Below, in pieces: positions 21,440 through 44,345 of a stretch of DNA of 64,000 bases. Both the position numbers and the translations under genes were made by a program. The stretch covers positions 434,001-498,000 of the forward strand of contig NZ_SGXT01000011.1 of assembly GCF_004216855.1 (NCBI RefSeq), given 5' to 3'. The notes under the pieces are model-generated. The model had not been told where the DNA came from and searched no databases. It saw only the letters and a program-made list of their open reading frames with translations. This DNA is from Microcella alkaliphila. GTDB lineage: Bacteria > Actinomycetota > Actinomycetes > Actinomycetales > Microbacteriaceae. Positions within the stretch are counted from its first letter, which is position 1. Each line of letters starts with the position of its first letter.

Positions 21440-21445
21440 CGAGCC

Positions 21446-21451
21446 AGGCTA
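21446..21451 (-). promoter_or_regulatory. -10 element of the spermidine synthase-like gene
   Basis: TAGCCT on the minus strand, 6 nt before ATG 21439. Confidence 0.5.
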
Positions 21452-21512
21452 ACCCGCAGGCCACCCTGCTACGGTCAGGCACCGGCTCTCGCTGGTCGCG
21501 AAGGAGCATCTC

Positions 21513-22637: not shown

Positions 22638-23149
22638 CGAAAACTGACGGCCGCTGCCCCGACACGGTCACGACCGAACTGCCGGGCGCGTTCCAGTTCC
22701 CCGGGCAGGACGGGCCCGTCGTACCCGACGATGGAGAACGAGGTGGGGCGCTGCGTGAGCGGAAGACCCGCAGACTTCGCGACGCGTCGTGCCGCCCAGG
22801 CCGCAGAGCCGGGCAGCCGCTTCACCTGTTCAACTTTGGTGTCGAAAGTGGCCACCAGAATGTGACGAGCGTCGGCCTCAATGCGTGCCATCCACTCACG
22901 GATACCGCTCGCGCTTGGCTGTGTGGCCCCCTTCGCGATCGCCTCGTCCCGAGTTGCGGGTCGGCTGAGCGAAAAAGCGTGCGTGAGAGCGCCGATCACG
23001 AGCAGGTCGACGCCCTCGAGACGTGTTGGCGCATCATCGACGCGCACGACACGTGCGTCACCGGCGGCAGCGAGACCCTCCGCAACGGCGTACGCAATGC
23101 GCTCAGTGTTGCCCCAGTGCGACTCGACGACGACGAGAGAGGTGGTCAT
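22634..23149 (-). CDS. Flavodoxin-domain protein
   Basis: The 171-residue protein begins VVVESHWGNTERIAYAVAEGL, the FMN phosphate loop of flavodoxins (usual T/SxTGNT, here SHWGNT), followed by LLVIGALTHAFSLSRP. The redox partner is unknown. It converges on the DUF1611 gene with a shared CTAG and lies 40 bp upstream of the BCCT transporter stop. Confidence 0.8.
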   Translation of the reverse strand: MTTSLVVVESHWGNTERIAYAVAEGLAAAGDARVVRVDDAPTRLEGVDLLVIGALTHAFSLSRPATRDEAIAKGATQPSASGIREWMARIEADARHILVATFDTKVEQVKRLPGSAAWAARRVAKSAGLPLTQRPTSFSIVGYDGPVLPGELERARQFGRDRVGAAAVSFR

Positions 23150-28951: not shown

Positions 28952-29272
28952 TTAGGCGCCGGCCGTGACCGCCAGCACCAGCACGAGCGAGCTCGCGATC
29001 ATCGTCAGGAAGGCGGCCGCGAGCAGGGCGAGGCGCAGCCGACCGGGGCGGACGGCGAAACGGGCCACGAGCATCCCGAGGGTGAGGGCGGCGGCGATCG
29101 CCGCGCCGACGAGCGCGACGGATGAGTCGAGGCGCGCCCAGAGCGCGACGAACATGCCGCCGACGAGCACGGAGGTGATGAGGCCCATCACCACCCACAC
29201 GGTGCCGGAGGCGGTCGTCAGCTGCGGCTGCGCGCGCACGCGGGTCGGGTCGGGCTGCGGAGTGTCGGCCAT
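28952..29272 (-). CDS. Small membrane protein
   Basis: The 106-residue protein has a polar N-terminus and three hydrophobic segments (VWVVMGLITSVLVGGMFVAL, VALVGAAIAAALTLGMLVA, LALLAAAFLTMIASSLVLVL). No family recognised. It lies between gcdH (convergent) and the GAPDH gene on the same strand. GGTGGG precedes the ATG. Confidence 0.65.
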   Translation of the reverse strand: MADTPQPDPTRVRAQPQLTTASGTVWVVMGLITSVLVGGMFVALWARLDSSVALVGAAIAAALTLGMLVARFAVRPGRLRLALLAAAFLTMIASSLVLVLAVTAGA

Positions 29273-29335
29273 CGACCCACCGTGGCAGCCCGACCTGGCA
29301 GAGCGGTCAGGAAGCGGTGCCCCGGGGATCGACGC

Positions 29336-30784
29336 TCAGACGAGGACGCGCTCGGGCACGACCACGGGGTGTGCGCCCGCCATCGTCTCGAGCACGCGAA
29401 TCACCTGCGAGCTGTAGCCGAACTCGTTGTCGTACCAGACGTAGACGATGAGGTGGCGGCCCTCGCAGATGGTCGCGAGCCCGTCGACGATGCCCGCGCG
29501 ATGCGACCCCACGAAGTCGGTCGACACCACCTCCGGTGACTCGATGTAGTCGATCTGCTGACGCAGCTCAGAGTGCAGCGACATGCGGCGCAGGTGCTCG
29601 TTCACCTCGTCGCGCGTCGTCTCGTCGCGCAGGGTGAGGTTCAGAATGGCCATCGAGACGTCGGGCGTGGGCACCCGAATCGCGTTTCCGGTCAGCTTGC
29701 CGGCCAACTGCGGAAGCGCCTTCGCCACCGCCTTCGCGGCCCCCGTCTCGGTGATGACCATGTTGAGCGCAGCGCTGCGGCCGCGTCGGTCGCCCGAGTG
29801 GAAGTTGTCGATCAGGTTCTGGTCGTTCGTGTACGAGTGCACCGTCTCGACGTGGCCGTGCTCGATGCCCCACGCATCGTCGATGACCTTCAGAACGGGA
29901 GTCACCGCGTTGGTGGTGCAGGATGCAGCGGTCACGATGGCATCGTCGGCCTCGATGGCGGCGTGGTTGATGCCGTGCACGATGTTCTTCAGCGCGCCCT
30001 TGCCGGGAGCCGTCAGCAGAACGCGGGCGACACCGGGCGCGCGGAGGTGCTGGCTGAGGCCCTCTTCGTCGCGCCAACGCCCCGTGTTGTCGACGACGAT
30101 CGCATCGTGAATGCCGTGCGCCGTGTAGTCAACGCGGTCGGGAGCGTCCGCGTAGATGACCTGGATGAGCGTGCCATTCGCGAGGATCGTGTTCGCCTCC
30201 TCGTCGACGGTGATCGAGCCGTCGAAGGGGCCGTGCACGCTGTCGCGGCGCAACAGGCTCGCGCGCTTGACGAGGTCGTTGGCGCCGCCGCGACGCACGA
30301 CGATCGCCCGCAGTCGCAGGCCCGAGCCGCTTCCGGAGTGCGCGACGAGGATGCGGGCAAGCAGTCGCCCGATGCGTCCAAAGCCATACAACACGACGTC
30401 GGTGGGGGCAGTGGGGGCCGCGGTCGGCATGACGGCGGCGAGTTCGTCGCGCAGGAACTCGATGAGGTCGCGGTCGTCGTCCGACGCGGCGTGGCCCGTC
30501 ACGAGGCGCGCGATGTCGAGGGAGGCGGGGCCCGGCTGGATCGCGAGCAGAGCATCCAGAACCCGGTGCGAGTCGGCGAGCGCCAGCTCGTCTCCCGTCA
30601 CGTGCTGGGCGTAGCGGTGGGCGCGCAGGATTCCGGTCGCCGATTCGTTAATGAGGCGGCGGCCGTGGATGCTCGTCACCACCCCGTGGTCGCGGTACAG
30701 CCGCCCGATCAGGGGGATCAGCTGTTCGGCTGCGGCCTCGCGCTCTTTCCAGGCGGCGTGGATGGTCGTGACGTCATCGCTCAC
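29336..30784 (-). CDS. gap: Glyceraldehyde-3-phosphate dehydrogenase, long actinobacterial form
   Basis: The 482-residue protein has an N-terminal extension of about 125 residues (helical, starting SDDVTTIHAAWKEREAAAEQ) before the Rossmann motif YGFGRIGRLLAR, then the catalytic ASCTTNAVTP with the active-site Cys and the C-terminal YVWYDNEFGYSSQV. The extension marks a second GAPDH class distinct from the about 335-residue glycolytic enzyme; it may serve gluconeogenesis or NADP use (inference). GTG 30784 is preceded by AAGGAA. Confidence 0.9.
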   Translation of the reverse strand: MSDDVTTIHAAWKEREAAAEQLIPLIGRLYRDHGVVTSIHGRRLINESATGILRAHRYAQHVTGDELALADSHRVLDALLAIQPGPASLDIARLVTGHAASDDDRDLIEFLRDELAAVMPTAAPTAPTDVVLYGFGRIGRLLARILVAHSGSGSGLRLRAIVVRRGGANDLVKRASLLRRDSVHGPFDGSITVDEEANTILANGTLIQVIYADAPDRVDYTAHGIHDAIVVDNTGRWRDEEGLSQHLRAPGVARVLLTAPGKGALKNIVHGINHAAIEADDAIVTAASCTTNAVTPVLKVIDDAWGIEHGHVETVHSYTNDQNLIDNFHSGDRRGRSAALNMVITETGAAKAVAKALPQLAGKLTGNAIRVPTPDVSMAILNLTLRDETTRDEVNEHLRRMSLHSELRQQIDYIESPEVVSTDFVGSHRAGIVDGLATICEGRHLIVYVWYDNEFGYSSQVIRVLETMAGAHPVVVPERVLV

Positions 30785-30879
30785 TGTGGCGTTCCTTGGC
30801 TTCCCGGCGCGCGGTCGCTGCCGTGTCGAGGGTGATCGGGGACACGTGGTGGCGGTGGTGCCTCCGATGCTACCTGTCG

Positions 30880-32094
30880 CTACGCGTCGGCGGCGGCCAG
30901 CTGCCCGCAGGCGCCGTCGATCTCTTTTCCGCGGGTGTCGCGCAGCGTCGTCGGAATTCCGGCGTCGTTCAGTCGACGCACGAACTCGTTCTGCACGGCC
31001 CTCTCCGACGCCGTCCAGATCGAGCCGGGGGTCGGGTTCAGCGGGATGGGGTTCACGTGCACCCAGCCGCGCCCCCGCTCGTGCAGCTTCTGCGCAAGCA
31101 GGTCGGCCCGCCACGCGTGGTCGTTCATGTCTTTGATGAGCGCGTACTCGATCGAGACCCGACGACCGGTCTTGTCGAAGTAGTCGCGGGCCGCATCCAG
31201 CGCCTCATCGACCTTCCAGCGCGAGTTGACCGGAATCAGCTCGTCGCGCAGCTGGTCGTCGGGCGCGTGCAGGCTGAGGGCGAACGTGACGGGAATCTTC
31301 TCGTCGGCGAGCTTGCGAATCGCGGGCACGAGACCCACGGTCGAGACGGTGATGTTGCGGGCGCTCATGCCGAGCCCGTGCGGCTGCGGGGCGACCATCG
31401 TGCGCACGGCACTCATGAGTCGGGCGTAGTTCGCGAGCGGCTCGCCCATGCCCATGAAGACGATGTTGCTGACCCGGTCGGGCGTCTCGTCACCCTTCTT
31501 GCGCCCTCCTAGCTCGGCGCGGGCGAGCGCGCGGTTCGCCGCGACCACCTGGTCAACAATCTCGGCCGCCGACATGTTGCGGGTGAGCCCCGCCTGGCCC
31601 GTCGCGCAGAACGGGCAGTTCATTCCGCAGCCGGCCTGGCTCGAGACACACAGGGTGATGCGACCGGGGTAGCGCATCAGCACCGACTCGACGAGGGCTC
31701 CGTCGTGCAGCTTCCAGAGGAACTTGATGGTGTCGCCGTTGTCGGTCGCGAGGCGCCGCACCTCGGTGAGCAGCGGCGGCATGAGATCGACGACGAGCTC
31801 GTCGCGGCCAGCGGCCGGCAGGTCGGTCATCGCGGCCGAGTCGGTCGTGTAGTGCGTGAAGTAGTGGGTCGACAGCTGCTTCGCGCGGAAGGCGGGAAGA
31901 CCGCGATCCGTGACCGCCTGGATGCGCGCATCCTGGTCGAGATCCGCCCAGTGCACGGGGGGCTTTCCTCGCTTCGGGGAGGCGAACTGCAGCAGCGGCC
32001 GCCCCTCGGTGTCGAGCTTCTGCTGCCAGCCCTCCGTCTGCGGGCGCACCTGACGGGTCTCGCCGTTGTTGCGGATGCCGCCAGAAGAAGCCAT
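30880..32094 (-). CDS. rlmN: Dual-specificity RNA methyltransferase RlmN
   Basis: Radical-SAM enzyme methylating A2503 of 23S rRNA and A37 of some tRNAs. The 404-residue protein carries the cluster motif [30 protein letters not shown] and the C-terminal [18 protein letters not shown] with the methyl-carrying Cys. ATG 32094 lies 6 nt after TACCCT (leaderless type). A second, diverged copy of its first 50 or so codons lies at 34309-34491. Confidence 0.96.
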
Positions 32095-32100
32095 GCCTCT

Positions 32101-32106
32101 AGGGTA
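32101..32106 (-). promoter_or_regulatory. -10 element of rlmN
   Basis: TACCCT on the minus strand, 6 nt before ATG 32094. Confidence 0.5.
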
Positions 32107-32158
32107 CGGGGCGCCAGTGAGGCAGCGAGCAGGGGTCCGCACACGACCGTAGTCAGTG

Positions 32159-32187
32159 ATGACAGTATATAGTATTCCTGCTACATT
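32159..32187 (+). promoter_or_regulatory. Promoter of the ABC-transporter/HTH cassette
   Basis: ATGACA (32159-32164, one mismatch to TTGACA), a 17-bp spacer and TACATT (32182-32187), an almost ideal housekeeping promoter. The spacer contains the A/T-rich near-palindrome GTATATAGTAT, strikingly A/T-rich for this genome and a candidate operator for the cassette's own HTH protein. Confidence 0.65.
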
Positions 32188-32221
32188 ACGTCTCACGATA
32201 ACAACACGTCAGGAGTCAGCC

Positions 32222-33118
32222 ATGACACGAGACATCGTCGTCCGCGCCCGCGGTGTGGCCATGAGCTACGGCGCAAAACGCGTACTCGACAGCATCGATC
32301 TCGACATTCATCGGGGCGAGGTCATCGCGCTCCTGGGCGCCAACGGCGCAGGAAAGACCACGACGATTGAGATACTGGAGGGCGTCCGCTCGCCCACCGC
32401 GGGAACGGTAGAGGTGCTCGGAATCGACCCCGTTCGCGCCGGTGTTGAGCACCGAGCCCGAGTCGGAGTTGTCCTGCAGTCGTGGCGAGATCACGGGCGG
32501 TGGCGCGTGCGCGAGTTCCTGCACCACTTCTTCGTCCTGCATTCGCCATTTCGCAAACATGACAGCTGGGCGGTTGACGACCTGCTGGAACGGGTCGGTC
32601 TCGCCGACAAGGCGCGGGCTCGCATCATGTCGCTTTCCGGCGGGCAGCGTCGCCGACTCGACGTGGCGGTGGGGCTGATGGGCAACCCGGAACTACTCTT
32701 CCTCGACGAACCCACGGCGGGTTTCGATCCACACGCGCGACGGGAATTCCACGAACTCATGCACGAGTTGGTGGACGCCCGCGCGACCACCATCCTGCTC
32801 ACCACTCACGACCTCGCCGAGGCGGAGCGCCTCGCCGACCGCATCCTCATTCTGCATAACGGTCGCATCGCCGCGAACGGCAGCGCCGACGCCCTTGCCC
32901 GAGAAGTCGCGGGCACCACGGAAGTGCGGTGGACCGCCCGCGGTGAGCGTTTCGTGCACTCGACCGAATCGGCTACGAGGTTTGTGCGAGACCTACTCGC
33001 CCGCGACCCCGACGTCGACGACCTCGAGGTTCGCCGAACCACCCTGGAGGACACCTACCTGACCATGGTTGCCCAGCACGAGGCGGCCGACGCCGAGACG
33101 AACGGAGAGCGAGCATGA
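32222..33118 (+). CDS. ABC transporter ATP-binding protein
   Basis: The 298-residue ATPase has Walker A GANGAGKTTT, signature LSGGQRRRLD, Walker B LLFLDEPTAGFDP and switch LTTHD, followed by a C-terminal extension of about 80 residues typical of drug/bacteriocin-export ATPases of the ABC-2 type. AGGAG lies 6 nt before ATG 32222. The permease gene starts in an ATGA overlap at its stop. Export is inferred from the ABC-2 partner; the substrate is unknown. Confidence 0.92.
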   Translation: MTRDIVVRARGVAMSYGAKRVLDSIDLDIHRGEVIALLGANGAGKTTTIEILEGVRSPTAGTVEVLGIDPVRAGVEHRARVGVVLQSWRDHGRWRVREFLHHFFVLHSPFRKHDSWAVDDLLERVGLADKARARIMSLSGGQRRRLDVAVGLMGNPELLFLDEPTAGFDPHARREFHELMHELVDARATTILLTTHDLAEAERLADRILILHNGRIAANGSADALAREVAGTTEVRWTARGERFVHSTESATRFVRDLLARDPDVDDLEVRRTTLEDTYLTMVAQHEAADAETNGERA

Positions 33119-33966
33119 CAATCACGAGCGGCGCGGTTCGCGCGGGAGCGATGCGCGGGTGGGTGGAGTTTCGCAACAGCCTCCAGACGCCTACGGACGT
33201 CATCTACTACGTCATCGGCGCGGCAGGCTTCTCGGCCGCCGTGTGGTTTTTCCGCGACGACGTGATCCCCGAGCTCGGCATCTCCACGGCGGCCGTCATC
33301 TTTCCCAGCGTGCTCGCCCTCATGACCCTCTTTGTCGGTGCCTACGGACTCGCAACTCTCGTGTCAACCGAGCGTGAAGACGGCACCCTCTTGCGGCTCG
33401 CGATGCAGCCCGCAGGGACATTCACATACGCGTGGGGGCAAACCGTCCGCACCTTGCTCGAGTTGGCGTTCACATTCGGGATGTTCACGATCCTGGCCAG
33501 CATCCTCGTTCCCGACCTCTGGGCTCGCGGAATCGGAGGCGCGTCGATAGCCGTGGGCTTTCTCCTGCTCGGCGTCCTCGCGTGTCTGCCCCTCGGATTC
33601 GTCGTCGGGTCCCTGTTCAATAACCCGCGGTCGGTGGGTGGGTGGGGCTTCCTCGTGACGGGGGCGATCGTCGCCGCCTCGGGCGTCTTCCTCCCCCTGA
33701 GTGAGTTGCCGACGTGGGTGCAGATCGCCGGTCAAGTCCTCCCCCTGTACTGGCTTGGGCTCGGACTGCGCAGCGCCCTCCTCCCCGCGGATTTCGCGGT
33801 GGTCGAGCTCGGTGAGAGTTGGCGCACGCTGGAATCGATCGGGATGCTCGGGCTCTGGGCTGCCATGGGCCTCGTGCTTGCCCCGATTCTCCTGCAACGA
33901 GTGGCACGCAGAGAGTCGCTGGCAACGCTGGCGACGCGACGCGAGAAGGCGATGCAGCGTGTCTGA
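33115..33966 (+). CDS. ABC-2 type transporter permease
   Basis: The 283-residue membrane protein has six hydrophobic segments, with TEREDGTLLRLAMQPAG in the amphipathic coupling region and PLYWLGLGLRSALLP before the last segment, the usual ABC-2 permease layout. It overlaps the ATPase gene by 4 bp and the HTH gene by 8 bp, so the three form one tightly coupled operon. Confidence 0.9.
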   Translation: MTITSGAVRAGAMRGWVEFRNSLQTPTDVIYYVIGAAGFSAAVWFFRDDVIPELGISTAAVIFPSVLALMTLFVGAYGLATLVSTEREDGTLLRLAMQPAGTFTYAWGQTVRTLLELAFTFGMFTILASILVPDLWARGIGGASIAVGFLLLGVLACLPLGFVVGSLFNNPRSVGGWGFLVTGAIVAASGVFLPLSELPTWVQIAGQVLPLYWLGLGLRSALLPADFAVVELGESWRTLESIGMLGLWAAMGLVLAPILLQRVARRESLATLATRREKAMQRV

Positions 33967-34225
33967 GAAGACGGCGACCGAGCGCACCGAGCAGGTGCAC
34001 AACCGGATCGCCATGCTTCGCGTCGAGCGCGGCATCAGCCGACGACAGTTTTCCGAACAACTCGGGGTGCACTACCAAACGGTGGGGTATCTGGAACGGG
34101 GTGAGTACAGCCCAAGCCTGCACCTCGCGCTGCGTATCGCCGACTACTTCGATGTCCCGGTTGAGTTCATCTTTTCTCTGGAACCCTTTGCGCCCATCGG
34201 CCAGCAAGCCGCGCGGAGACCGTGA
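33959..34225 (+). CDS. XRE-family HTH regulator of the ABC cassette
   Basis: The 88-residue Cro/C1-type protein is close to a bare helix-turn-helix: RIAMLRVERGISRRQFSEQL, GVHYQTVGYLERGEYSPSL, then ALRIADYFDVPVEFIFSLEPF. This compact form is typical of regulators next to ABC-2 exporters. GTG 33959 overlaps the permease stop by 8 bp. It probably controls its own operon through the A/T-rich promoter at 32159-32187 (inference). Confidence 0.88.
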   Translation: MSEKTATERTEQVHNRIAMLRVERGISRRQFSEQLGVHYQTVGYLERGEYSPSLHLALRIADYFDVPVEFIFSLEPFAPIGQQAARRP

Positions 34226-34259
34226 CGGCTATGCGGTGACGCCAACCGGGCAAGGCGCG

Positions 34260-34308
34260 TACCGTCAGGGGAATGACGCCTCCTGAGACGCCCGATACGA
34301 CCGAGGCC
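34260..34308 (+). repeat. Duplicated promoter and first codons of the DEAD-box helicase gene
   Basis: TACCGT, 7 nt, then ATGACGCCTCCTGAGACGCC and onward to about 34308 repeats 35101-35149 with only a few differences, encoding the same first 12 residues (MTPPETPDTTEA). The similarity stops abruptly where the rlmN-derived sequence begins. The -10 element is intact, so it may still fire, but it would transcribe antisense to cinA. Confidence 0.85.
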
Positions 34309-34491
34309 GATCCGTCTCGAGATTCGCCCAGTGAACCGGCGGCTTGCCCCGCTTCGGGGAGGCGAACTGCAGCAGGGGGCGGCCCGCGGCGTCTAGCTTC
34401 TGCTGCCAGCCCTCGGTGGCGGGGCGTACCTGACGGGTCTCGCCGCTATTGCGGATGCCGCCGGAACGAGCTGTTACTCAAGAGTACGGGC
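34309..34491 (-). pseudogene. Diverged 5' remnant of rlmN
   Basis: Read on the minus strand this encodes [19 protein letters not shown], then [20 protein letters not shown] and KPPVHWANLE, matching residues 4 to about 55 of the intact RlmN. By eye there are about 20 nucleotide differences over 150 bp but only about six residue changes, most differences being synonymous. The start codon is gone (GTTACTC in place of the CATGCCTCT region), while a TACTCT element persists at the promoter position. The pattern fits an allele that diverged while functional and was truncated later. Confidence 0.85.
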
Positions 34492-34502
34492 TACGCGCGG
34501 CC

Positions 34503-34997
34503 TCAGTGTGCGCGGAGGCGCGCCATGAGAGCCACCAGTGCGCGTTCGACAACCTGGTCCACAATCTCCGACGGTGTGCCGGTGAACACGTGTGTCTGCG
34601 CCGTTCCGATGCCCCGCGCGTGCACGCCAATGACCACGGTGCCCGCCGGCAGACCCTCCGAGCCGCCCGGACCGCCCACACCTGTCACGGCAACGGCGGC
34701 GTCTGCGCCCAGCAGTCGACGCACGCCCCATGCCATCTGGCGGGCGCAAGTTTCTGTGACCACGGGGCCAACACCGACCCCCAGAGCGCGAAATTTTGAC
34801 TCCGGGCGGTACGCCACGACGCCTCCCGCGAACCAGTCGCTGGCACCTGGCGCCGCGCCCAGCGTCGATGCGATCGCACCACTCGTGAGCGACTCAGCGC
34901 ACGCGAGGATGAGTGATTGCTCACGCGCGTAACCGGCAATCTCATCCGCAAGGCGCGATGCAGATGGAGGAGCGGAGGTCGAGTCAGTCGAGGTCAC
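34503..34997 (-). CDS. CinA C-terminal-like nicotinamide-nucleotide amidohydrolase
   Basis: The 164-residue stand-alone CinA/PncC domain has CAESLTSGAIASTL, SDWFAGGVVAYRPESK and VTGVGGPGGSEGLPAGTV. It recycles NMN to nicotinic acid mononucleotide in the pyridine nucleotide cycle. It lacks the N-terminal MoCF-like half of full CinA. It is the cargo of the second rlmN-helicase unit. GTG 34997 is the likely start; no clear RBS is seen. Confidence 0.88.
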   Translation of the reverse strand: MTSTDSTSAPPSASRLADEIAGYAREQSLILACAESLTSGAIASTLGAAPGASDWFAGGVVAYRPESKFRALGVGVGPVVTETCARQMAWGVRRLLGADAAVAVTGVGGPGGSEGLPAGTVVIGVHARGIGTAQTHVFTGTPSEIVDQVVERALVALMARLRAH

Positions 34998-35100
34998 CCG
35001 ACACCGTTACGAAATGACCCGCACGTCGTCAGGGGGCTTGACGCAGACCTGGCGAATTCCTTCGGCATCGGCAACGGTACGTCGCGCGGCCAAACCCGCG

Positions 35101-35106
35101 TACCGT
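35101..35106 (+). promoter_or_regulatory. -10 element of the DEAD-box helicase gene
   Basis: TACCGT, 7 nt before ATG 35114; duplicated at 34260-34265. Confidence 0.55.
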
Positions 35107-35113
35107 TAAGGGC

Positions 35114-36988
35114 ATGACGCCTCCAGAGACGCCCGATACGACCGAGGCAGACAACGCCACACCCCTGCCGAAATTCTCTGAACTCGGGCTCAGCGACGCC
35201 GTGATGGCCGCGCTGACCGACGTCGGCTACGAGACCCCCTCCGCCATCCAGGCGGCGACGATCCCGACACTGCTGGCTGGGCGCGACGTCGTGGGCCTCG
35301 CCCAGACCGGCACCGGCAAGACGGCCGCGTTCGCGTTGCCGATCCTGTCGCGCCTTGACGTGTCGCAGCGCACACCGCAGGCGCTCGTGCTCGCCCCCAC
35401 CCGCGAGCTCGCTCTGCAGGTCTGTGAGGCGTTCGAGCGCTACGCCGCACACCTTCCCGGCGTGAGCGTTCTGCCCGTCTACGGAGGCCAGGGCTATGGC
35501 GTGCAGCTGTCGGCGCTGCGCCGCGGCGTGCACGTCATCGTCGGCACGCCCGGCCGCATCATGGACCACCTCGACAAGGGCACCCTCGACCTGTCTGAGC
35601 TGAAGTACCTCGTGCTCGACGAGGCCGACGAGATGCTGAAGATGGGCTTCGCGGAAGACGTTGAGACGATCCTCGCCGACACGCCCGACGACAAGCAGGT
35701 CGCCCTGTTCTCGGCGACCATGCCCGCCTCGATTCGCCGGATCGCGCAGCAGCACCTCAACGATCCCGAAGAAATCAGCGTCAAGACGAAGACGACCACG
35801 TCGTCGACGATCACGCAGCGCTACCTCGTCGTGTCGTACCAGCAGAAGGTCGACGCCCTCACGCGCATCCTCGAGGTCGAGAACTTCGACGGCATGATCG
35901 TGTTCGTTCGCACGAAGAACGAGACCGAGACGCTGGCCGAGAAGCTGCGCGCCCGCGGATACTCCGCCCAGGCGATCAACGGCGACGTGCCGCAGGTGCA
36001 GCGCGAACGCACGGTCGAGCAGCTGAAGAACGCGAAGCTCGACATCCTCGTCGCCACCGACGTCGCCGCCCGCGGCCTCGACGTCGAGCGCATCAGCCAC
36101 GTCGTCAACTTCGACATTCCCGTCGACACCGAGAGCTACGTGCACCGCATCGGCCGCACGGGCCGCGCCGGCCGCACGGGCGACGCGATCAGCTTCGTCA
36201 CTCCGCGCGAGCGGCGCCTGCTGGATGCGATCGAGCGCGCCACCCGCCAGCCGCTCACGCAGATGCACCTGCCGACGGTCGACGACGTCAACGCCACGCG
36301 ACTCACCCGCTTCGACGACGCCATCAGCGAGGCACTCGGCAAGACCGACCTGATCGAAACGTTCCGGGGCATCATCGACCACTACGTCGAGCACCACGAT
36401 GTGCCGGAAGCCGACGTCGCCGCCGCGCTCGCGGTCGTCGCGCAGGGCGGCACTCCCCTGCTGCTTACGGAGGACGACATCCGCCCGCCGAAGATGCCGC
36501 GCGACGATCGCTCGCGGGATGCCGGCGGCCGGGATGGCGGCCGGGATGCTCGCGGCGACTCCGAGCGCCCGCCGCGTCGCGAACGCCGTAACGGTCCGCC
36601 GCTCGCGCCGTACCGCATCGAGGTCGGCCGCCGGCACCGCGTCGAGCCTCGCCAGATCGTCGGAGCGCTCGCGAACGAGGGCGGGCTGTCGCGCGACGAC
36701 TTCGGGGCGATCGACATCAAGCTCGACTTCTCGATCGTCGAGCTGCCCGCCGAGATGTCGACCGCGACGCTGAAGAAGCTCGCCGACACCCGCATCAGCG
36801 GGCGCCTGATCGAGTTGAAGAGTGACCGCGGCCCGCGTAAGAAGGACCGCGGCGGGTTCCGCGACCGCAACGACCGCGGGGGTCGCGCTGGTGATGCGCG
36901 CGGCGGCGGCGACGCGCGCGGCAGCTTCTCGCGCGAGAGCGACGACCGCCCGGCCCGCAAGCCCCGCCAGAAGCGCCGCGACGGCTAG
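35114..36988 (+). CDS. deaD: DEAD-box ATP-dependent RNA helicase (DeaD/CsdA-type)
   Basis: The 624-residue helicase has the Q-motif region (FSELGLSDAVMAAL...ETPSAIQ), motif I AQTGTGKTAA, motif II DEAD, motif III SAT and motif VI HRIGRTGRAGRTG, then a C-terminal DbpA-like RNA-binding domain (PYRIEVGRRHRVEPRQIVGAL) and an Arg/Gly/Asp-rich tail. Acts in ribosome assembly and RNA decay, often cold-induced. The first 12 codons and the promoter are duplicated upstream at 34260-34308. Confidence 0.95.
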   Translation: MTPPETPDTTEADNATPLPKFSELGLSDAVMAALTDVGYETPSAIQAATIPTLLAGRDVVGLAQTGTGKTAAFALPILSRLDVSQRTPQALVLAPTRELALQVCEAFERYAAHLPGVSVLPVYGGQGYGVQLSALRRGVHVIVGTPGRIMDHLDKGTLDLSELKYLVLDEADEMLKMGFAEDVETILADTPDDKQVALFSATMPASIRRIAQQHLNDPEEISVKTKTTTSSTITQRYLVVSYQQKVDALTRILEVENFDGMIVFVRTKNETETLAEKLRARGYSAQAINGDVPQVQRERTVEQLKNAKLDILVATDVAARGLDVERISHVVNFDIPVDTESYVHRIGRTGRAGRTGDAISFVTPRERRLLDAIERATRQPLTQMHLPTVDDVNATRLTRFDDAISEALGKTDLIETFRGIIDHYVEHHDVPEADVAAALAVVAQGGTPLLLTEDDIRPPKMPRDDRSRDAGGRDGGRDARGDSERPPRRERRNGPPLAPYRIEVGRRHRVEPRQIVGALANEGGLSRDDFGAIDIKLDFSIVELPAEMSTATLKKLADTRISGRLIELKSDRGPRKKDRGGFRDRNDRGGRAGDARGGGDARGSFSRESDDRPARKPRQKRRDG

Positions 36989-37105
36989 CGGGGAGCGGTA
37001 GCGCGCCGCGCCCCGCGCGTCAATCCCCTCCGACCCCGCATGACCAGGGTGTACGGTACGGTTCACTGCACGGCGATCCCGCTCGCAGTGACAAGGAGGC
37101 GTGAC

Positions 37106-37333
37106 ATGACCACCATCACCTGGAGCGTCGTACCGGGAGTCCCCCACCTCGCCCTCGTCGGCCGCAAGGGCACCGAGGTCGTCGCGACGATCGAGACCGA
37201 CGGAATCCTGCGCTACCGACTGATTGCGGCGAACGGCAGGATGCTCGGGCGCTTCGAATCCATCGGCGAAGCCCAGGCGGCCCTGCATACGTTCGAAATC
37301 GAGCGCGAGATGCGCGAGGGCCAGCTCACGTGA
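37106..37333 (+). CDS. Small conserved protein of unknown function
   Basis: The 75-residue protein (ITWSVVPGVPHLALVGRKGT, RYRLIAANGRMLGRFESIGE) looks like a small beta-rich fold. AAGGAGG lies 6 nt before ATG 37106, one of the best ribosome sites in the window. A 7-bp inverted repeat TCACTGC/GCAGTGA lies in the leader (about 37063-37091). It is coupled to the next gene by GTGA. Confidence 0.7.
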   Translation: MTTITWSVVPGVPHLALVGRKGTEVVATIETDGILRYRLIAANGRMLGRFESIGEAQAALHTFEIEREMREGQLT

Positions 37334-37545
37334 GCGGCCCCGCGATCGAAACGTGGTGGCCTGAGCTGTCGATCGGCGCGCGCCACGCGCTGAACGACGC
37401 GCTCGCCGAGGAGCGCAATCCGCACCTCCCGGAGTCGGTGCTCGCCGAGATCGAGTCGATCACCGGCGATACGCGCGATGCCGATGACGCGCTCAGCGAC
37501 GACGAGCGCGCGTTCATCGAAACGCAGCAGGAGCAGGTCGACTAG
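37330..37545 (+). CDS. Small acidic protein of unknown function
   Basis: The 71-residue acidic protein starts WWPELSIGARHALNDAL and ends with a charged helix (ALSDDERAFIETQQEQVD). GTG 37330 overlaps the preceding stop (GTGA), so the two small proteins are probably made together and may interact. The stop shares CTAG with the convergent gene. Confidence 0.65.
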   Translation: MSGPAIETWWPELSIGARHALNDALAEERNPHLPESVLAEIESITGDTRDADDALSDDERAFIETQQEQVD

Positions 37546-37973
37546 CGACGCCCGCTCGCGGCCCACACGGTCGAGAGGTGCGCGCCCGCGTCGTCGTCGC
37601 GCACTCGCTGCCAGTTGCGACCGCCGCGCTGCAGGGTCTGCACTATGGCGGCGGGCAGCTCGTCATCGCCCAGCGGTGTCGACCGCCAATCGCACGGCCG
37701 CACATGCACAAGATCGACAGCGTGTGCCTCGGCCGAATCGTCGCGCGCGTACGGGCCCGCGAGACGTCCGAGATAGACGTCGCCCCGAGCATCCAGTGTG
37801 ATGACGAACGCGCCGTCGGGCGCGGAGGCGAAGCGGTCGACCCGCCGCGCGAGGCGTTCCCGCTGGCCGGCATCGCCGTCGTCAATGCGGTCGCCGATTC
37901 CGACGACGCCGATCTCGAGCGCGCGCGTAACCGCAGCGCCGTCATCGGGGATGCTCGCCGACCGTGACCGCAT
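37542..37973 (-). CDS. Protein with a possible PUA/EVE-like fold
   Basis: About 143 residues if started at ATG 37973. The core FVITLDARGDVYLGRLAGPY followed by VHVRPCDWRSTPLGDDELP resembles the small beta-domain (PUA/EVE-like) found in restriction-associated proteins, where it binds modified bases; this is a pattern impression only. A TTG at 38099 would extend the frame into argG and is unlikely. Lies downstream of argG on the same strand. Confidence 0.55.
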   Translation of the reverse strand: MRSRSASIPDDGAAVTRALEIGVVGIGDRIDDGDAGQRERLARRVDRFASAPDGAFVITLDARGDVYLGRLAGPYARDDSAEAHAVDLVHVRPCDWRSTPLGDDELPAAIVQTLQRGGRNWQRVRDDDAGAHLSTVWAASGRR

Positions 37974-38052
37974 CGGCGCACGGAACACGGGCACCGCCCC
38001 GGGCGCGGCCGGGGCCGATTCTGCCGAGGGCGTGCCCGCTGCCACAGCGTCG

Positions 38053-39642: not shown

Positions 39643-39948
39643 ATGGGGCAGTTCATATATGGAGGGTCCGCCACGAACTCCTTCGAGATCGACGATCGAA
39701 TTCTCGCTCACCTAGAAATTGCGATCGGCACGAAGTTTCGTCGAAACGAGTCGTTCATCCTGACGTTGCGGGGACGAGAACTTCCGTCGGGCTCTGGCTA
39801 CCGGGAGTTCTGGATGCACCCGGCCATCTGGATGCAGTTTCGCATCGACCGCCCGGAACGAGCGCGACCGATCAACGCGGCATGGGTGGCGACGATGGTT
39901 GCCGCCGCGTCGACCGATCGCGGGCTCAGCCTGATCCGAGAGCCCTAG
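39643..39948 (+). CDS. DUF7882-like protein, paralogue A
   Basis: The 101-residue protein starts MGQFIYGGSATNSFEIDDRI and continues LAHLEIAIGTKFRRNESF, REFWMHPAIWMQFRI and RPINAAWVATM. It is clearly homologous to the products at 43520-43840 and 43797-44165. The family is common in Microbacteriaceae and often labelled DNA ligase in automatic annotation, for which nothing in the sequence speaks. Function unknown. No clear RBS or -10 element stands close to the ATG. Confidence 0.75.
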   Translation: MGQFIYGGSATNSFEIDDRILAHLEIAIGTKFRRNESFILTLRGRELPSGSGYREFWMHPAIWMQFRIDRPERARPINAAWVATMVAAASTDRGLSLIREP

Positions 39949-39957
39949 AGCACCGAC

Positions 39958-40593
39958 TCAGGAGAGGGCATCGCGAATCGCGCCCTCCGCCTTGGACAGC
40001 ACGGCGGGCCCGGGGTCCGTTCCGTGGAATCGTGGGTCGGGTCGGGTCGGCGGCCCCATGGGAACCCGAGAGCTTGGCCCATCGACGTAACTAAACTCGC
40101 CGTGCCCGTCTGGGGTCGGACCGGATGCCCACGAACCCTCTGCCGCGGCCTGGCCGTCGGAGAAGTTCAGGTACTCGTACGCGTGCTCGGATGCCTCCTT
40201 GCTGCGCGGGAAGGTGCTCGGCACGGGCAGCGCCTCGCGGTTTTCCTCTTGCAGCTCGCGCGCGGCGGCGATCCACTGATTCTGATGCATCGTGTCGCGG
40301 GCGATGAGGAACGACAGCATGCTCTTCACGCCCGCATCGTCAGTCATCGAGTGCAGGCGGGCGATCATGATGGCGAGCATCTCCACGTGGCCGAACTCTT
40401 CCGCGGCGATTCCGTAAAGCAAATCGCGGTACTTGCCGGGCAGATGACAGTTCCAGGCCTGGAAGCCGTACTGCATGGCGACCGTGATCTCGCCGTACTG
40501 CCCGCCGAGCACCTCCTGCAGGCGCCGGGCGTATACCGCGTCCGGCTTGTCGGGTGTCGCGTCGAACTGCAGTTCCTGACGGTGGAAGAACAT
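39958..40593 (-). CDS. Manganese catalase-like protein with an internal deletion
   Basis: The 211-residue protein has MFFHRQELQF at the start, QYGEITVAMQY (Glu35), AAEEFGHVEML (Glu66, His69), then jumps from MIARL (residue 80) straight to HSMTDDAGVKSML and RDTMHQNQW (His103). In full-length dimanganese catalases about 78 more residues lie between these blocks and include the fourth ligand Glu (Glu148 in L. plantarum numbering, where His103 here corresponds to His181). The frame is intact. A normal dimetal site therefore seems impossible. GAAGGGG precedes ATG 40593. Confidence 0.8.
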   Translation of the reverse strand: MFFHRQELQFDATPDKPDAVYARRLQEVLGGQYGEITVAMQYGFQAWNCHLPGKYRDLLYGIAAEEFGHVEMLAIMIARLHSMTDDAGVKSMLSFLIARDTMHQNQWIAAARELQEENREALPVPSTFPRSKEASEHAYEYLNFSDGQAAAEGSWASGPTPDGHGEFSYVDGPSSRVPMGPPTRPDPRFHGTDPGPAVLSKAEGAIRDALS

Positions 40594-40718
40594 AAAATCC
40601 CCTTCGGACGGGCCCGCGCAATGAGCGGACGGTGAGTCGGCGACGCTACGCCGCACCTCGGCTGATCCCGCGGGGCATGACAGGATGCCGGGCGCAGAGG
40701 ATCGTGTGCCCGCCCGCT

Positions 40719-40729
40719 GTCAACCCCCT
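40719..40729 (-). promoter_or_regulatory. AGGGGGTTGAC element upstream of the catalase-like gene
   Basis: On the minus strand AGGGGGTTGAC, containing a TTGACA-like -35, lies about 126 bp upstream of the catalase-like start. The identical 11-mer occurs at 44283-44293, about 118 bp upstream of another minus-strand start. No convincing -10 is paired with it. The rest of this 226-bp divergent spacer shows nothing else clear. Confidence 0.3.
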
Positions 40730-40819
40730 GCCCGTGCGGCCACGACGCGAGGATGCTCGACGCATGACATCCACATCGCCACGCCCGCCCGGCCGCTGCC
40801 AGCGCAAGGGAGGCGTCCG

Positions 40820-42010
40820 ATGAGGGCCGTCACCTGGCAGGGTCATCGCTCACTCGAGGTCGCCGATGTCCCCGCACCGCGGATCGAGCAGCCGACCGAT
40901 GCGATCATCCGTGTGACTGCGACCGCTGTCTGCGGTTCCGACCTTCACCTGTACGAACTACTCGGTGCGTTCATCAAGCCGGGGGACATCCTCGGTCACG
41001 AGCCGATGGGCATTGTCACCGAGGTCGGCCCGGGGGTGTCGAGCCTTGCTGTGGGCGACCGCGTCGTCGTGCCCTTCCCCATCGCCTGCGGCTCGTGCCC
41101 GATGTGCCTTCGAGGACTGCACACGCAGTGCGAGACGACCCAGAACCGCGACCACGGGATGGGCGCCTCCCTCTTCGGCTACACCTCGCTGTACGGCTCC
41201 GTGCCGGGCGGGCAGGCCGAGTATCTGCGGATACCCCTTGCCGATGCGACCTCCATCCGCATCGACGGCACGCTGCCGGATGAGCGGTACCTCTTCCTCA
41301 GCGACATCATCCCGACGGCCTGGCAGGCGGTCGAGTACGCCGAGCTGCAGGAGGGCGAGACCCTTCTCGTGCTCGGGCTCGGTCCGGTCGGCCAGCTGGC
41401 CGCGCGAGTCGGCCGGCTGCGCGGCGCCCGCGTGATTGGCGTCGATCCGGTGCCCGAGCGGCGCGCGATGGCCGCGCGGCACGGCGTCCACGCGCTCGAC
41501 GTTGACGAACTCAACACGGTCGTTGAGCTCACCGAGGGCCGGGGTGCCGACCGGGTGGTCGACGCGGTCGGCACCGAGGCGAGCGGCAATCCCGTCGTCA
41601 AGGCAGCCCAGGCCGCCACGGCACGCCTGCCGAAGGCGATCGCCCGCCCCGTTCTCGAGGCGACGGGCGTCGACCGCCTGCAGGCGCTGCACACGGCGAT
41701 CGACCTGGTTCGCCGCGGCGGCACCGTGTCTCTTGCCGGCGTGTACATCGGAGATGCCGACGTCCTGCCGGTGAAGACGATGTTCGACAAGCAGCTCACG
41801 CTGCGGATGGGCCAGTGCAACGTGCAGCGCTGGATCGACGAGCTCCTGCCGATCGTGGAAGACCCGGCGGACCCGCTGGGCCTCTCCGACCTCGTCACGC
41901 ACCGCGGAACGCTCGAGGACGCGCCGCGCTTGTACGAGCTGTTCCAGAAGAAGGAGGACGGCTGCATCAAGGTCGTCCTCTACCCCGAGGGCGCGGAGGT
42001 CACCGCGTGA
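40820..42010 (+). CDS. Zinc-dependent alcohol dehydrogenase (formaldehyde dehydrogenase-like)
   Basis: The 396-residue MDR-family enzyme has VCGSDLHLYELLG (catalytic zinc), GHEPMGIVTEVG, the structural-zinc cysteine lobe CGSCPMCLRGLHTQC, and the NAD fold LVLGLGPVGQLAA. The insertion pattern resembles glutathione-independent formaldehyde dehydrogenases. AAGGGAGG precedes ATG 40820. The next gene starts in a GTGA overlap, so the two enzymes form an operon. Confidence 0.88.
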   Translation: MRAVTWQGHRSLEVADVPAPRIEQPTDAIIRVTATAVCGSDLHLYELLGAFIKPGDILGHEPMGIVTEVGPGVSSLAVGDRVVVPFPIACGSCPMCLRGLHTQCETTQNRDHGMGASLFGYTSLYGSVPGGQAEYLRIPLADATSIRIDGTLPDERYLFLSDIIPTAWQAVEYAELQEGETLLVLGLGPVGQLAARVGRLRGARVIGVDPVPERRAMAARHGVHALDVDELNTVVELTEGRGADRVVDAVGTEASGNPVVKAAQAATARLPKAIARPVLEATGVDRLQALHTAIDLVRRGGTVSLAGVYIGDADVLPVKTMFDKQLTLRMGQCNVQRWIDELLPIVEDPADPLGLSDLVTHRGTLEDAPRLYELFQKKEDGCIKVVLYPEGAEVTA

Positions 42011-43509
42011 GCGGGCAGCACGGCCCGCTCTCGCTCTGGCACGCCACCTCCTCGGGCATCGAGGCGGATACGGGCATCCCGCAGCGCGCGGACGTCGTCG
42101 TGGCAGGAGGCGGCCTCGCCGGCGTCGCCACCGCCCTGCTGCTCGCGAGGGAGGGCCGTGACGTCGTGCTGCTCGAGGCCGACCGCATCGGCGGGCGGAC
42201 GACGGGCAACACCACGGCGAAGGTCAGCGCCCTGCAGGGGACCATGTACAGCAGCATCCGCGCCCACAACGGCGACGATGCCGTTCGCGACTACGCGGCG
42301 GCCACCCTGGATGCGCAGGCCTGGCTGCTCGACGAACTGCGCGGCGCGGGCGGCGTCGTGGAGGAACGGACGTCGCTCAGCTACGCGACGACCGATGAGG
42401 GCGTCGCCGCGCTGACCGAGGAGGCGGACGCGCTGGCCGTGGCGGGCATCGGTGCCGAGTGGTGCTCCCCCAGCGGCGTCGAGCTGCCCGTGACTGTGCG
42501 CGGCGCCCTTCGGCTCGACGGGCAGCATCAAATTCAGCCGCTCGATGCGCTGTCGGTCCTCGCCCGCCGCGCGCGTGCGGCGGGCGCGAAGCTCATCGAA
42601 GGAGTTCGCGTGCGCGATGTCGAGATCGACCGCGACGGGGTCTCGGTCCGCCTCGATGACGCGACGGTCCGGGCCGAGCACATCGTCGTCGCGACGGGCC
42701 TGCCCATCGTTGACCGCGGACTCTTCTTCGCCCACATGGTGCCCTCTCGCCAGTACGTGGGGGCGTTCAGTGTCCCCGGCGGCGCGCCCGAGATGGCGAT
42801 GAGCTTGTCCGTCGACCCCATTGAGCGATCGCTGCGGGATGCCCGCGGTCCGGATGGCGAGCGACTGGTTGTCGTCGGCGGCGACAGCTTCACGACGGGC
42901 CGGGACGAGAACACGGCCGAGCGACTCGCCGCTGTCGTCGATTGGGCGTCGACAACCTTTGCGGGTGCGTCGCTCGTAACGTGGTGGGCCGCGCAGGACT
43001 ATCAACCCGAGCACCACATGCCCTTCGCCGGCCCCGTACCGCGAAGCCATGGCCGCGCCTACGCCGCGACCGGTTTCGCCAAGTGGGGCATGACGGGTGC
43101 CATGCTCGCAGCACGCATCATCGCGGGAGAACTCGCCGATGCTCCGATGCCGTGGGCACCGGCCTTCCATGGTCGGCGCGGCTCCGCGCGCACCCTCGGC
43201 AGCATCGTCGGAGCGAACGCCGCCGTCGCAAAGGAGATGATCGCGGGGTGGGCGCGGCCGTCGCCCGCCGCGCCGTCCGCCCCCGAGGTGGACCGCGAGG
43301 GGGTCGTGCCTGTCACCTCGGAGGGCGCGGAACCCGGATGCGCACTGCGCACGGTGTGCACGCATCTCGGAGGAGTTCTTCGGTGGAACACCGCCGAGGA
43401 GTCGTGGGATTGCCCGCTGCACGGCTCGCGGTTCGACGTGGAGGGCCGCGTCATCGAGGGGCCGGCCACCCGTGACCTTTCCCGCACGAACAATTCGGCT
43501 AGCGAGTAG
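42007..43509 (+). CDS. FAD-dependent oxidoreductase with C-terminal Rieske domain
   Basis: The 500-residue fusion has an N-terminal DAO-type FAD domain (VVVAGGGLAGVATALLLARE, LLEADRIGGRTTGNTTAKVS) and a C-terminal Rieske [2Fe-2S] domain with CTHLGG and CPLHGSRFD supplying the two Cys and two His ligands. Electrons probably pass between FAD and the cluster; the substrate is unknown. It is translationally coupled to the alcohol dehydrogenase gene. Its TAG stop forms part of the -10 element of the next gene. Confidence 0.9.
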   Translation: MSGQHGPLSLWHATSSGIEADTGIPQRADVVVAGGGLAGVATALLLAREGRDVVLLEADRIGGRTTGNTTAKVSALQGTMYSSIRAHNGDDAVRDYAAATLDAQAWLLDELRGAGGVVEERTSLSYATTDEGVAALTEEADALAVAGIGAEWCSPSGVELPVTVRGALRLDGQHQIQPLDALSVLARRARAAGAKLIEGVRVRDVEIDRDGVSVRLDDATVRAEHIVVATGLPIVDRGLFFAHMVPSRQYVGAFSVPGGAPEMAMSLSVDPIERSLRDARGPDGERLVVVGGDSFTTGRDENTAERLAAVVDWASTTFAGASLVTWWAAQDYQPEHHMPFAGPVPRSHGRAYAATGFAKWGMTGAMLAARIIAGELADAPMPWAPAFHGRRGSARTLGSIVGANAAVAKEMIAGWARPSPAAPSAPEVDREGVVPVTSEGAEPGCALRTVCTHLGGVLRWNTAEESWDCPLHGSRFDVEGRVIEGPATRDLSRTNNSASE

Positions 43510-43512
43510 TGT
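43507..43512 (+). promoter_or_regulatory. -10 element of DUF7882-like paralogue B
   Basis: TAGTGT, 7 nt before ATG 43520. Its first three bases are the stop codon of the FAD-Rieske gene. Confidence 0.5.
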
Positions 43513-43519
43513 TCCCCAG

Positions 43520-43840
43520 ATGGGGACGTTGTATTACGCGGGCAGTGAAGTGGCGATTCCGTTCGACGACGAGGCCTTGGCGCACCTGAAGGTGCTCGCC
43601 ACGGCGAAGTTGCGGCGCGGCGAGAGCTTCACCGTAAGTTGGGAACACCCACCTGGCGAACGACCGGGACGCTCGACAATCTGGGTGCATCCGACCATAC
43701 CCCTGCGCTTCGTCTTCGACTCGCTCGACCAGCCGGAGTTGGATCGAGCCTGGCTCGAAAGCCTGTCAACGTCAGCGAATCTCTCAGGCGGGATTGTCAT
43801 CGACTCCGAGCACGTGCAGCAAGACCACGACTCGGCGTAG
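43520..43840 (+). CDS. DUF7882-like protein, paralogue B
   Basis: The 106-residue protein starts MGTLYYAGSEVAIPFDDEAL and continues AHLKVLATAKLRRGESFTVS, STIWVHPTIPLRFVF and LDRAWLESLS, the same order as paralogues A and C. Function unknown. It overlaps the convergent paralogue C by 44 bp, so the two C-termini are encoded on opposite strands of the same DNA. Confidence 0.78.
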   Translation: MGTLYYAGSEVAIPFDDEALAHLKVLATAKLRRGESFTVSWEHPPGERPGRSTIWVHPTIPLRFVFDSLDQPELDRAWLESLSTSANLSGGIVIDSEHVQQDHDSA

Positions 43841-44165
43841 CGCTGGCGGAGGCGGCCGGCGCCGACTCTTCCGGCTCGGGAACGATCCGCAGACCAGTGG
43901 GCCCGCTCGCCTCGCGGAAGAGCGTTTCAACCCAGGCTCGGTTGAGGCGCGGTTCGCGGCTGCCGAAGAAGTGGAACTGGATGGGCACGGCCGGGTGCAC
44001 CCAGAAGCTCCGCCTGCCGCTGCCCTCTGCGGGCGGCAGGTCGAATTCGAACATGAAGGGTTCCGATCGGCGGAGCTTGGTGGTCATCACCATGCGCAGG
44101 TGAGCGAGCACACGGTCATCAATGTCGACCGTAGTGGAGGGTACTCCGTAGATGAATTTCCCCAT
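43797..44165 (-). CDS. DUF7882-like protein, paralogue C
   Basis: The 122-residue protein starts MGKFIYGVPSTTVDIDDRV and continues LAHLRMVMTTKLRRSEPFMF, SFWVHPAVPIQFHFF and RLNRAWVETLF, with an extra Ala/Ser/Arg-rich tail of about 20 residues. Its promoter (TAGTGT, 6 nt before the ATG) is overlapped by a perfect 20-bp palindrome, so this copy is probably regulated. Confidence 0.8.
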   Translation of the reverse strand: MGKFIYGVPSTTVDIDDRVLAHLRMVMTTKLRRSEPFMFEFDLPPAEGSGRRSFWVHPAVPIQFHFFGSREPRLNRAWVETLFREASGPTGLRIVPEPEESAPAASASATPSRGLAARARSR

Positions 44166-44171
44166 GGCCAG

Positions 44172-44177
44172 ACACTA
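44172..44177 (-). promoter_or_regulatory. -10 element of DUF7882-like paralogue C
   Basis: TAGTGT on the minus strand, 6 nt before ATG 44165; its last bases overlap the palindrome at 44175-44194. Confidence 0.5.
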
Positions 44178-44194
44178 CCCCCGAACGGGGGTAG
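44175..44194 (-). promoter_or_regulatory. Perfect GC-rich palindrome over a promoter, candidate operator
   Basis: CTACCCCCGAACGGGGGTAG has 9-bp perfect arms around AA and overlaps the -10 element of paralogue C. The G/C-run arms with TAC/GTA ends resemble operators of CsoR/RcnR/FrmR-type repressors; no such regulator is in the window. The remaining spacer to 44345 holds one AGGGGGTTGAC element (44283-44293, minus strand) and nothing else clear. Confidence 0.55.
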
Positions 44195-44345
44195 ACGGTC
44201 AGTGCGACGTATACGAAACATTTCGCACGCTCACGCAAGGGTTATAGATGGTCGCGCGCGATGTCATACACATGCACCATCCGTCAACCCCCTCCCGCGA
44301 AACGGCCGTCCCGGGCATGTCGTGGAGCGCTCGTGCGACGTCGGC

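Follow-up and report, generated by a model that had tools for sequence, protein, structure and literature searches.

The gap between rlmN and deaD in Microcella alkaliphila holds two gene cargoes side by side, an ABC-ABC-XRE cassette and a PncC/CinA-type gene (cinA), separated by a scar that consists of the broken starts of both flanking genes. The locus lies in a stretch of 64,000 nucleotides (the window; positions 434,001 to 498,000 of contig NZ_SGXT01000011.1), to which all coordinates refer, and it was compared across 26 Microcella genomes, which are designated by G numbers (G000, the window genome; G010, M. putealis). Turnover of the genes between core genes is normally deduced only from which genomes have them and which do not; at this locus, two alternative cargoes coexist and their join has been preserved. 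We consider it fairly probable that end-joining of a piece of an rlmN-ABC-deaD allele was followed by its integration beside an rlmN-cinA-deaD allele and then by spread through homologous recombination.

The window genes were assigned to protein families using Pfam and NCBIfam scans. The left flank of the cargo site is intact rlmN (30880..32094, minus strand; Radical_SAM in Pfam, and above the cut-off of the RlmN equivalog TIGR00048 in NCBIfam). It is followed by the first cargo slot, with three genes on the plus strand: an ABC-2 type transporter ATPase (32222..33118; ABC_tran), an ABC-2 type permease (33115..33966; ABC2_membrane_3 and ABC2_membrane), and an XRE-type regulator (33959..34225; HTH_3). 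Beyond the scar, the second slot contains a gene for a PncC/CinA C-terminal domain (34503..34997, minus strand; CinA PF02464, and PncC_domain TIGR00199 above cut-off). Intact deaD (35114..36988, plus strand; DEAD, Helicase_C, DeaD_dimer, and DbpA) forms the right flank.

The scar was delimited by two direct repeats. The first one (181 nt, 82% identity) pairs the 5' end and promoter of intact rlmN (31930..32110, minus strand) with 34310-34490, and the second one (55 nt, 91%) pairs 34256-34310 with the promoter and start of intact deaD (35097-35151). The deaD stump (34256..34311, plus strand) comprises about 17 bp of promoter, including the box TACCGT at 34260-34265, and 13 codons (34273-34311). 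The rlmN stump (34310..34490, minus strand) comprises 55 codons (34310-34474) and a promoter remnant that extends to about 34490; its start codon has changed from ATG to ACA. Codon 13 of deaD is fused to codon 55 of rlmN with a 2-bp overlap, the bases AT at 34310-34311, which are common to the deaD-like and the rlmN-like sequence. An earlier note, made from the sequence alone, had described an rlmN-cassette-helicase stump unit followed by an rlmN stump-cinA-helicase unit, and the topology is exactly so. Both stumps are also present as it had stated, but their limits had to be corrected, from a promoter plus 12 codons at 34260-34308 for the helicase stump and from 34309-34491 for the rlmN stump.

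In the G000 genome, the sequence of the rlmN stump occurs at only two places, the stump itself and the intact copy (E <= 1e-15). The one-contig genome G002 has the same gene order, with 7 differences to G000 over 34279-34488. As the junction, the overlap, and the lost start codon are identical in G000 and G002, the scar formed once. When the 5' ends of rlmN and deaD were used as queries against 15 of the 16 rlmN-deaD gaps described below, scars were found in 2 of the 15, those of G000 and G002. Several further matches were examined and rejected. A 52-bp match (94%) to the upstream region of deaD from G011 lies inside the gaps of G001 and G025; it was read as common cargo rather than a second scar because it overlaps the start of an ArsR-type gene that is also found beside deaD in G011. 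A match in G004 (48 bp, 77-82%, within a sigma-factor gene) and a match of G025 to rlmN (35 bp, 83%) were taken as chance, and the G014 matches were the rlmN start of that genome itself. A coding or antisense role of the scar was also discarded: starting from the deaD stump, an open frame runs antisense to cinA for 219 codons in G000 and for 260 codons in G002, and it was taken as an ordinary long frame of high-GC DNA.

Gap contents across the genus

All 26 genomes were searched for deaD, rlmN, cinA, and the ABC permease. A gap between rlmN and deaD on a single contig could be measured in 16 of them, and 12 different contents were counted in these 16 gaps. Genes were called with a simple codon-based gene caller and were named after one Pfam-scanned representative per cluster. 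The other ten genomes could not be scored or lack the adjacency: the two genes are more than 1 Mb apart in G006 and G007 and on different large contigs in G019; in G013, G018, G021, and G023 they are on different contigs and no rlmN is present in the covered stretch upstream of deaD; and in G012, G015, and G016 one of the two is absent or broken.

The ABC-ABC-XRE cassette is followed by the scar and cinA in G000 and G002, and by genes for a membrane protein and a SatD-like protein in G010; the latter two genes make up the gap in G008 and G009. The gap of G022 contains cinA, a small membrane protein gene, ABC-ABC-XRE, YCII, and an ECF-type sigma factor, that of G020 contains cinA, a small membrane protein gene, AHSA1, and an ArsR-type gene, and in G014 a small membrane protein gene is followed by cinA. 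AHSA1 and the ArsR-type gene are found in G003 and G011, followed by PfkB and SurE in G001 and G025, preceded by YCII in G005, and preceded by a small open reading frame (ORF), YCII, and a sigma factor in G004. G024 has AHSA1 alone and G017 a fatty-acid desaturase. The ArsR-type genes are presumably rightly labelled, the HTH_20 match being just under the cut-off, and no Pfam family matched the two gap membrane proteins.

Close homologues of the permease (70-100%; next best 33%) were detected in 5 of the 26 genomes, four times in the gap and once, in G016, just after deaD. For the gap cinA, six of the 26 genomes have a close homologue (E of 7.9e-36 or better, compared to 9.4e-13 for the next match), which lies in the gap in five of them and just after deaD in G008; a more distant cinA homologue elsewhere in the genome is widespread in the genus. 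In a family sample of 299 genomes, the permease was found at E <= 1e-60 in seven, six of which are outside the genus, at 43-51%. The cargo is tied to the rlmN-deaD site, and the gap is a real cargo site with a high turnover of its content between fixed core genes, as the earlier note had proposed. The two cargoes also occur separately in the gap, with ABC but not cinA in G010 and cinA but not ABC in G014 and G020, and the ABC-scar-cinA order is not shared by all relatives. Pfam scanning of 16 gap proteins, which represent part of the gap ORFs, revealed no member of an integrase or transposase family. PADLOC returned only partial matches to the ATPase and HTH domains of the ABC cassette and none for the permease or cinA, and a defence role is not claimed.

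The right flank itself may be of later date. Outside Microcella, 0 of 76 deaD loci have rlmN within up to 9 kb upstream, whereas all four Microcella loci in the same set of 80 named loci do. G019 and G006 have members of the cargo families, for example YCII, in an rlmN-argG interval that lacks deaD; in G019, AHSA1, an ArsR-type gene, and part of a sigma gene are also present. Because rlmN was not found within this distance upstream of deaD outside the genus and the same cargo families occur between rlmN and argG without deaD, deaD seems to be a settler in an older variable zone between rlmN and argG.

Some observations at neighbouring positions and in other gaps were made along the way. A small membrane protein beside the GAPDH-type gene of the window (28952-29272) clusters with the small gene that is found together with cinA in the gaps of G014, G020, and G022; the cluster is also represented after deaD in G008, and its G022 member had no Pfam match. 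The AHSA1 gene of G011 (L043 8931-9416) is only 49-50% identical to those of G001, G003, and G024, although the rlmN genes are 92-96% identical, and an allele swap at the same site has probably taken place. Upstream of deaD in G015 (L044 2825-8742), AHSA1, a membrane protein with SatD-like, PfkB with SurE, and two singletons are piled up; no rlmN was found in G015.

Ages of the two cargoes and origin of the rlmN stump

A second species with the same scar allowed us to date the ABC part against its flanks. For the genome background, 666 of 790 tiles of G000 could be aligned to G002 over 395 kb (median identity 95.1%), and 319 reciprocal-best gene pairs had a median synonymous divergence (dS) of 0.169 (interquartile range 0.106-0.350). 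The ABC genes have a dS of 0.013 (ATPase) and 0.023 and the XRE gene of 0.015, whereas the dS is 0.24 for GAPDH, 0.24 for codons 1-60 and 0.35 for the rest of rlmN, 0.744 for cinA, 0.42 for codons 1-60 of deaD and 0.18 beyond codon 60, and, for argG, 0.33 over part of the gene and 0.23 over the full gene. Because the ABC part is nearly identical while its flanks are well diverged, it arrived or was re-exchanged after its neighbours had diverged. Judged by these sequences, it was acquired recently, next to a cinA slot of greater age. Both cargoes have been retained, as had been claimed from the sequence alone, but they are not equally old.

The limits of the young tract were determined by change-point fitting between G000 and G002 over 29000-38000, and the Bayesian information criterion (BIC) was compared across segment numbers. 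In the models with four to seven segments, a segment at 32115..34488, which comprises the ABC cassette and the scar and corresponds to about one 2,380-bp rlmN repeat unit, differs at 20 of 2365 sites (0.8%). The divergence is 7.6% to its left (29000-32114), and 13.3% and 40.9% in two segments to its right, over most of cinA and up to deaD. The lowest BIC was obtained with seven segments (3814.8), followed by 3816.7 with five and 3820.6 with eight segments (edge at 34278). The favoured edges lie within about 5 bases of the ends of the rlmN repeats (32110 and 34490). The scar was included in the young unit on account of the stump codons, in which no more than 3 of 165 sites differ, far below the median dS. 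The alternative that the scar is as old as the flanks was given up, since the scar belongs to the young segment in the models with the lowest BIC; there is thus a modest preference for a scar that is likewise younger than the flanks.

The idea of a uniquely young ABC module was rejected: 17 of the 319 genes have a dS <0.03, three of which are the ABC-ABC-XRE genes, and 55 of the 666 aligned 500-base tiles are at least 98.5% identical. Recent gene flow between the G000 and G002 lineages is general. Elsewhere in the window, three neighbouring genes at 20723-23149 (dS 0.007-0.021 to G002) form another recently shared tract. At 39643-45476, close to argG, is another variable zone with high divergence to G002, where three genes have a dS of 0.99, 1.01, and 0.52 and several tiles are unaligned.

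Between G000 and G010, the ABC and XRE genes have a dS of 1.08-1.25, compared to 0.35-0.54 for GAPDH, rlmN, and deaD. Because of this difference to the flanking genes, G000 and G010 are taken to hold different cassette alleles in the same gap, which are not simple vertical descendants. For codons 1-60 of deaD, the dS to G010 is 0.67 in G002 and 0.35 in G000, compared to 0.45 and 0.40, respectively, for the rest of the gene; G002 may have received a foreign cinA-deaD start.

Quantification of the similarities of the rlmN stump did not point to a single source. Over 165 aligned sites, the stumps of G000 and G002 are 98.2% alike, and they are 82-84% identical to the intact rlmN copies of these two genomes and 80% or less identical to those of other genomes. 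When only the 126 sites beyond codon 12 are considered, G025 is as similar to the stumps as the intact G000 and G002 copies are, at 83-85%. In the tree, the intact copies of G000 and G002 stand together, apart from the stumps (bootstrap 94). G000 and G002 share nine sites in codons 2-14 with the stump; four of these sites rest on only two comparison rows. In codons 19-43, six sites join it with the M. alkalica/Yonghaparkia group, two of which match G010 too, versus one (codon 39) that joins it with G000 and G002. An N-terminal deletion is common to the stumps and the intact G000 and G002 copies and is not found in that form in the other 20 of the 22 intact rows. Of the 28 differences between stump and intact copy over the 165 aligned bases, 17 are at third codon positions, compared to about 9 if they were evenly spread, a pattern that the divergence of a still functional gene would produce; the mostly synonymous character ascribed to them by the earlier note was thus borne out in tendency. 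No better match to the stump than the own intact rlmN was found in the family sample of 299 genomes. As the signal is mixed, no donor was named; it was probably an unsampled close lineage, possibly with a mosaic gene.

Formation of the join and competing explanations

The order of full-length rlmN, cargo, deaD stump, rlmN stump, cargo, and full-length deaD needs one illegitimate join and one homologous crossover. In the scenario that we favour, the cargo site of one Microcella clade would gain and lose small gene sets by recombination at the core-gene flanks. A resident rlmN-cinA-deaD allele would have additively received a fragment of an rlmN-ABC-ABC-XRE-deaD allele, whereby an illegitimate join with a 2-bp overlap would have linked codon 13 of deaD to codon 55 of rlmN and a homologous crossover would have occurred at rlmN, most simply as a single crossover of an end-joined, closed fragment. 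The product would be the ABC cassette with the deaD and rlmN stumps, bounded by copies of the rlmN 5' end at a spacing of 2,380 bp. Ordinary homologous recombination would later have carried the ABC part, most likely together with the scar, from the ancestor of one of the two genomes G000 and G002 to that of the other, or from a third lineage to one of them or to each, and the cinA slot and the deaD start would have been exchanged separately. A ComEC-type gene is present in 21 of the 26 genomes, including G000, which does not prove competence. Ku-type end joining was dropped as a specific route, as Ku was found in 6 of the 26 genomes and not in G000, G002, or G010.

Several results weigh against this scenario. 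Neither exact parental unit, rlmN-ABC-XRE-deaD or rlmN-cinA-deaD, was found among the 26 genomes; ABC and cinA do occur separately in the gap, the nearest approaches being G010, with ABC-XRE and two other genes, and G014, with a small membrane gene and cinA. The gaps of G010 and G022, which also contain double cargoes, lack a scar, and scarless routes therefore exist. In the models with three, eight, and nine segments, which fit slightly worse, the young tract ends on the right at 34278, within the deaD stump, and the stretch 34279-34307 contains four of the seven differences in the scar; with such an edge, the young part would be restricted to the ABC cassette and would leave out an older scar. 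Young tracts are not special between G000 and G002: the dS values of the locus are discordant, yet 17 of the 319 control genes are equally young in this comparison of two genomes. A crossover inside rlmN codons 14-19, which the distribution of the joining sites might suggest, should make the N-terminus of the intact gene look foreign, and no such foreign N-terminus was seen. Lastly, the tree groups the stumps with the intact G000 and G002 copies against the rest (bootstrap 88). A closest relationship of the two rlmN sequences had been named by the earlier note as a result that would refute its reading, and the overall identity, the phylogeny, and the common deletion partly show it, although G025 is equally close beyond codon 12 and codons 19-43 lean to another group.

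The same two alleles could have been joined by another route, namely homology-facilitated illegitimate recombination of a linear fragment or an unequal, out-of-register exchange between chromosomes that differed in cargo. We regard this as a minor possibility that deserves to be kept in mind, as the same order results from one illegitimate join and such events have been described in naturally competent species (PMC3240628, PMC5361080). An illegitimate join with a 2-bp overlap is present at our locus, and the homologous end has no unique placement. However, a deletion of recipient DNA at the illegitimate end, which belongs to homology-facilitated illegitimate recombination, was not found; the scar is a partial duplication of both flanks. 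In addition, single-crossover duplications predominated in the E. coli test of this process, albeit in plasmid conjugation: Amarir-Bouhram et al. 2011 (PMC3240628) report a partial-duplication product of the polymerase chain reaction for 56 of 60 recombinant clones, verified in 14 of them by sequencing, and ascribe it to a single crossover of a circle. Integration of a closed fragment, integration of a linear fragment, and unequal exchange are not separated by the present data.

A further-reaching idea, which we regard as doubtful, is that the scar made the ABC cassette a recombinase-free mobile unit of about 2,380 bp between direct copies of the rlmN 5' end, which plain homologous recombination could add or remove wherever there is an intact rlmN promoter. 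The stumps, lying back to back, would then serve as an internal island of homology that lets the two slots exchange independently with single-cargo relatives.

Tandem duplication of a gap with cinA and ABC within the lineage, followed by reciprocal loss of cinA from the first copy, of ABC from the second copy, and of most of the inner deaD and rlmN, would accommodate the grouping of the stump with the intact G000 and G002 rlmN and their common N-terminal deletion, and cinA and ABC-XRE do occur together in one gap in G022. This explanation is nevertheless unlikely: three or more deletions are needed on top of the duplication, a copy that has been truncated would not be expected to accumulate its differences chiefly at third codon positions, and a young ABC tract beside an old cinA slot is not predicted. 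Transport of the ABC cassette by a site-specific or transposable element, including an integron, is very improbable despite the sharp edges of the young tract, as the scanned gap genes include no integrase or transposase, the edges are copies of the core gene rlmN, no phage match was obtained, and the plasmid matches, in 77 records at 60-90% identity, in no case cover 80% of the query. An assembly artefact, conceivable for a window genome in 20 contigs, has practically no probability, because the same junction, with its seven differences, is present in the one-contig genome G002.

The fragment integration that we favour belongs to a known kind of process, of which the locus is an unusually readable case. 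The earlier reading is partly supported; its core stands, but it has to be amended in three respects, namely that no parental alleles were found, that the ages of the cargoes differ, and that the process is of a known kind. Hotspots between core genes, many of which lack mobile elements and show homologous recombination at their flanks, are described by Oliveira et al. 2017 (PMC5635113). Our locus resembles them in its variable content between fixed core genes, the lack of a recognised mobile element among the scanned genes, and the possible homologous exchange at the flanks. It differs in that alternative cargoes were added side by side with the join preserved, that species of a genus rather than strains of one species were compared, and that the deaD flank seems to be a recent settler. 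For the immunity arrays of the Vibrio type VI secretion system, Kirchberger et al. 2017 (PMC5361080) propose illegitimate insertion anchored by homology, after which the arrays were spread by homologous recombination. According to the authors' model, they share with our locus the additive insertion with one homologous anchor, the retention of leftovers of displaced genes, and the later homologous spread; unlike these arrays, the rlmN-deaD gap contains no effector or immunity genes, and the leftovers are the starts of two housekeeping flanks and not orphan cargo. The E. coli test, in turn, produced a homologous locus that was partly duplicated beside inserted DNA, as here, but by laboratory conjugation of a plasmid and not from a natural chromosomal fragment. 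The titles and abstract openings inspected in searches on Microcella genomes and on rlmN, deaD, and Microbacteriaceae contained no account of this locus, which is not proof that it is unreported. The scar of two broken gene starts would record gene addition by recombination without a visible mobile element, and a single 5-kb locus makes it possible to test whether genes are acquired additively, through a homologous and an illegitimate step, and then spread by homologous exchange.

Promoter-like boxes at the edges of the gap

Both flanking genes have boxes resembling the -10 element within about 15 bp of their start codons, and little is conserved upstream of these boxes. A TACCGT box is located 6-7 nt before the ATG of deaD in the 23 genomes with a captured start (that of G007, G012, and G016 was not captured), and a TACCCT box is located 6-7 nt before the ATG of rlmN in 22 of 22 intact rows. 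In the window, the corresponding regions are 35101-35113 for deaD (TACCGT) and 32095-32107 for rlmN (TACCCT), and leaderless transcripts are possible. With leaderless promoters of the actinobacterial type, about 15 bp upstream could suffice for the expression of rlmN and deaD. The position of the boxes so close to the two starts suggests that the gap tolerates turnover because compact promoters leave almost the whole of it free to change.

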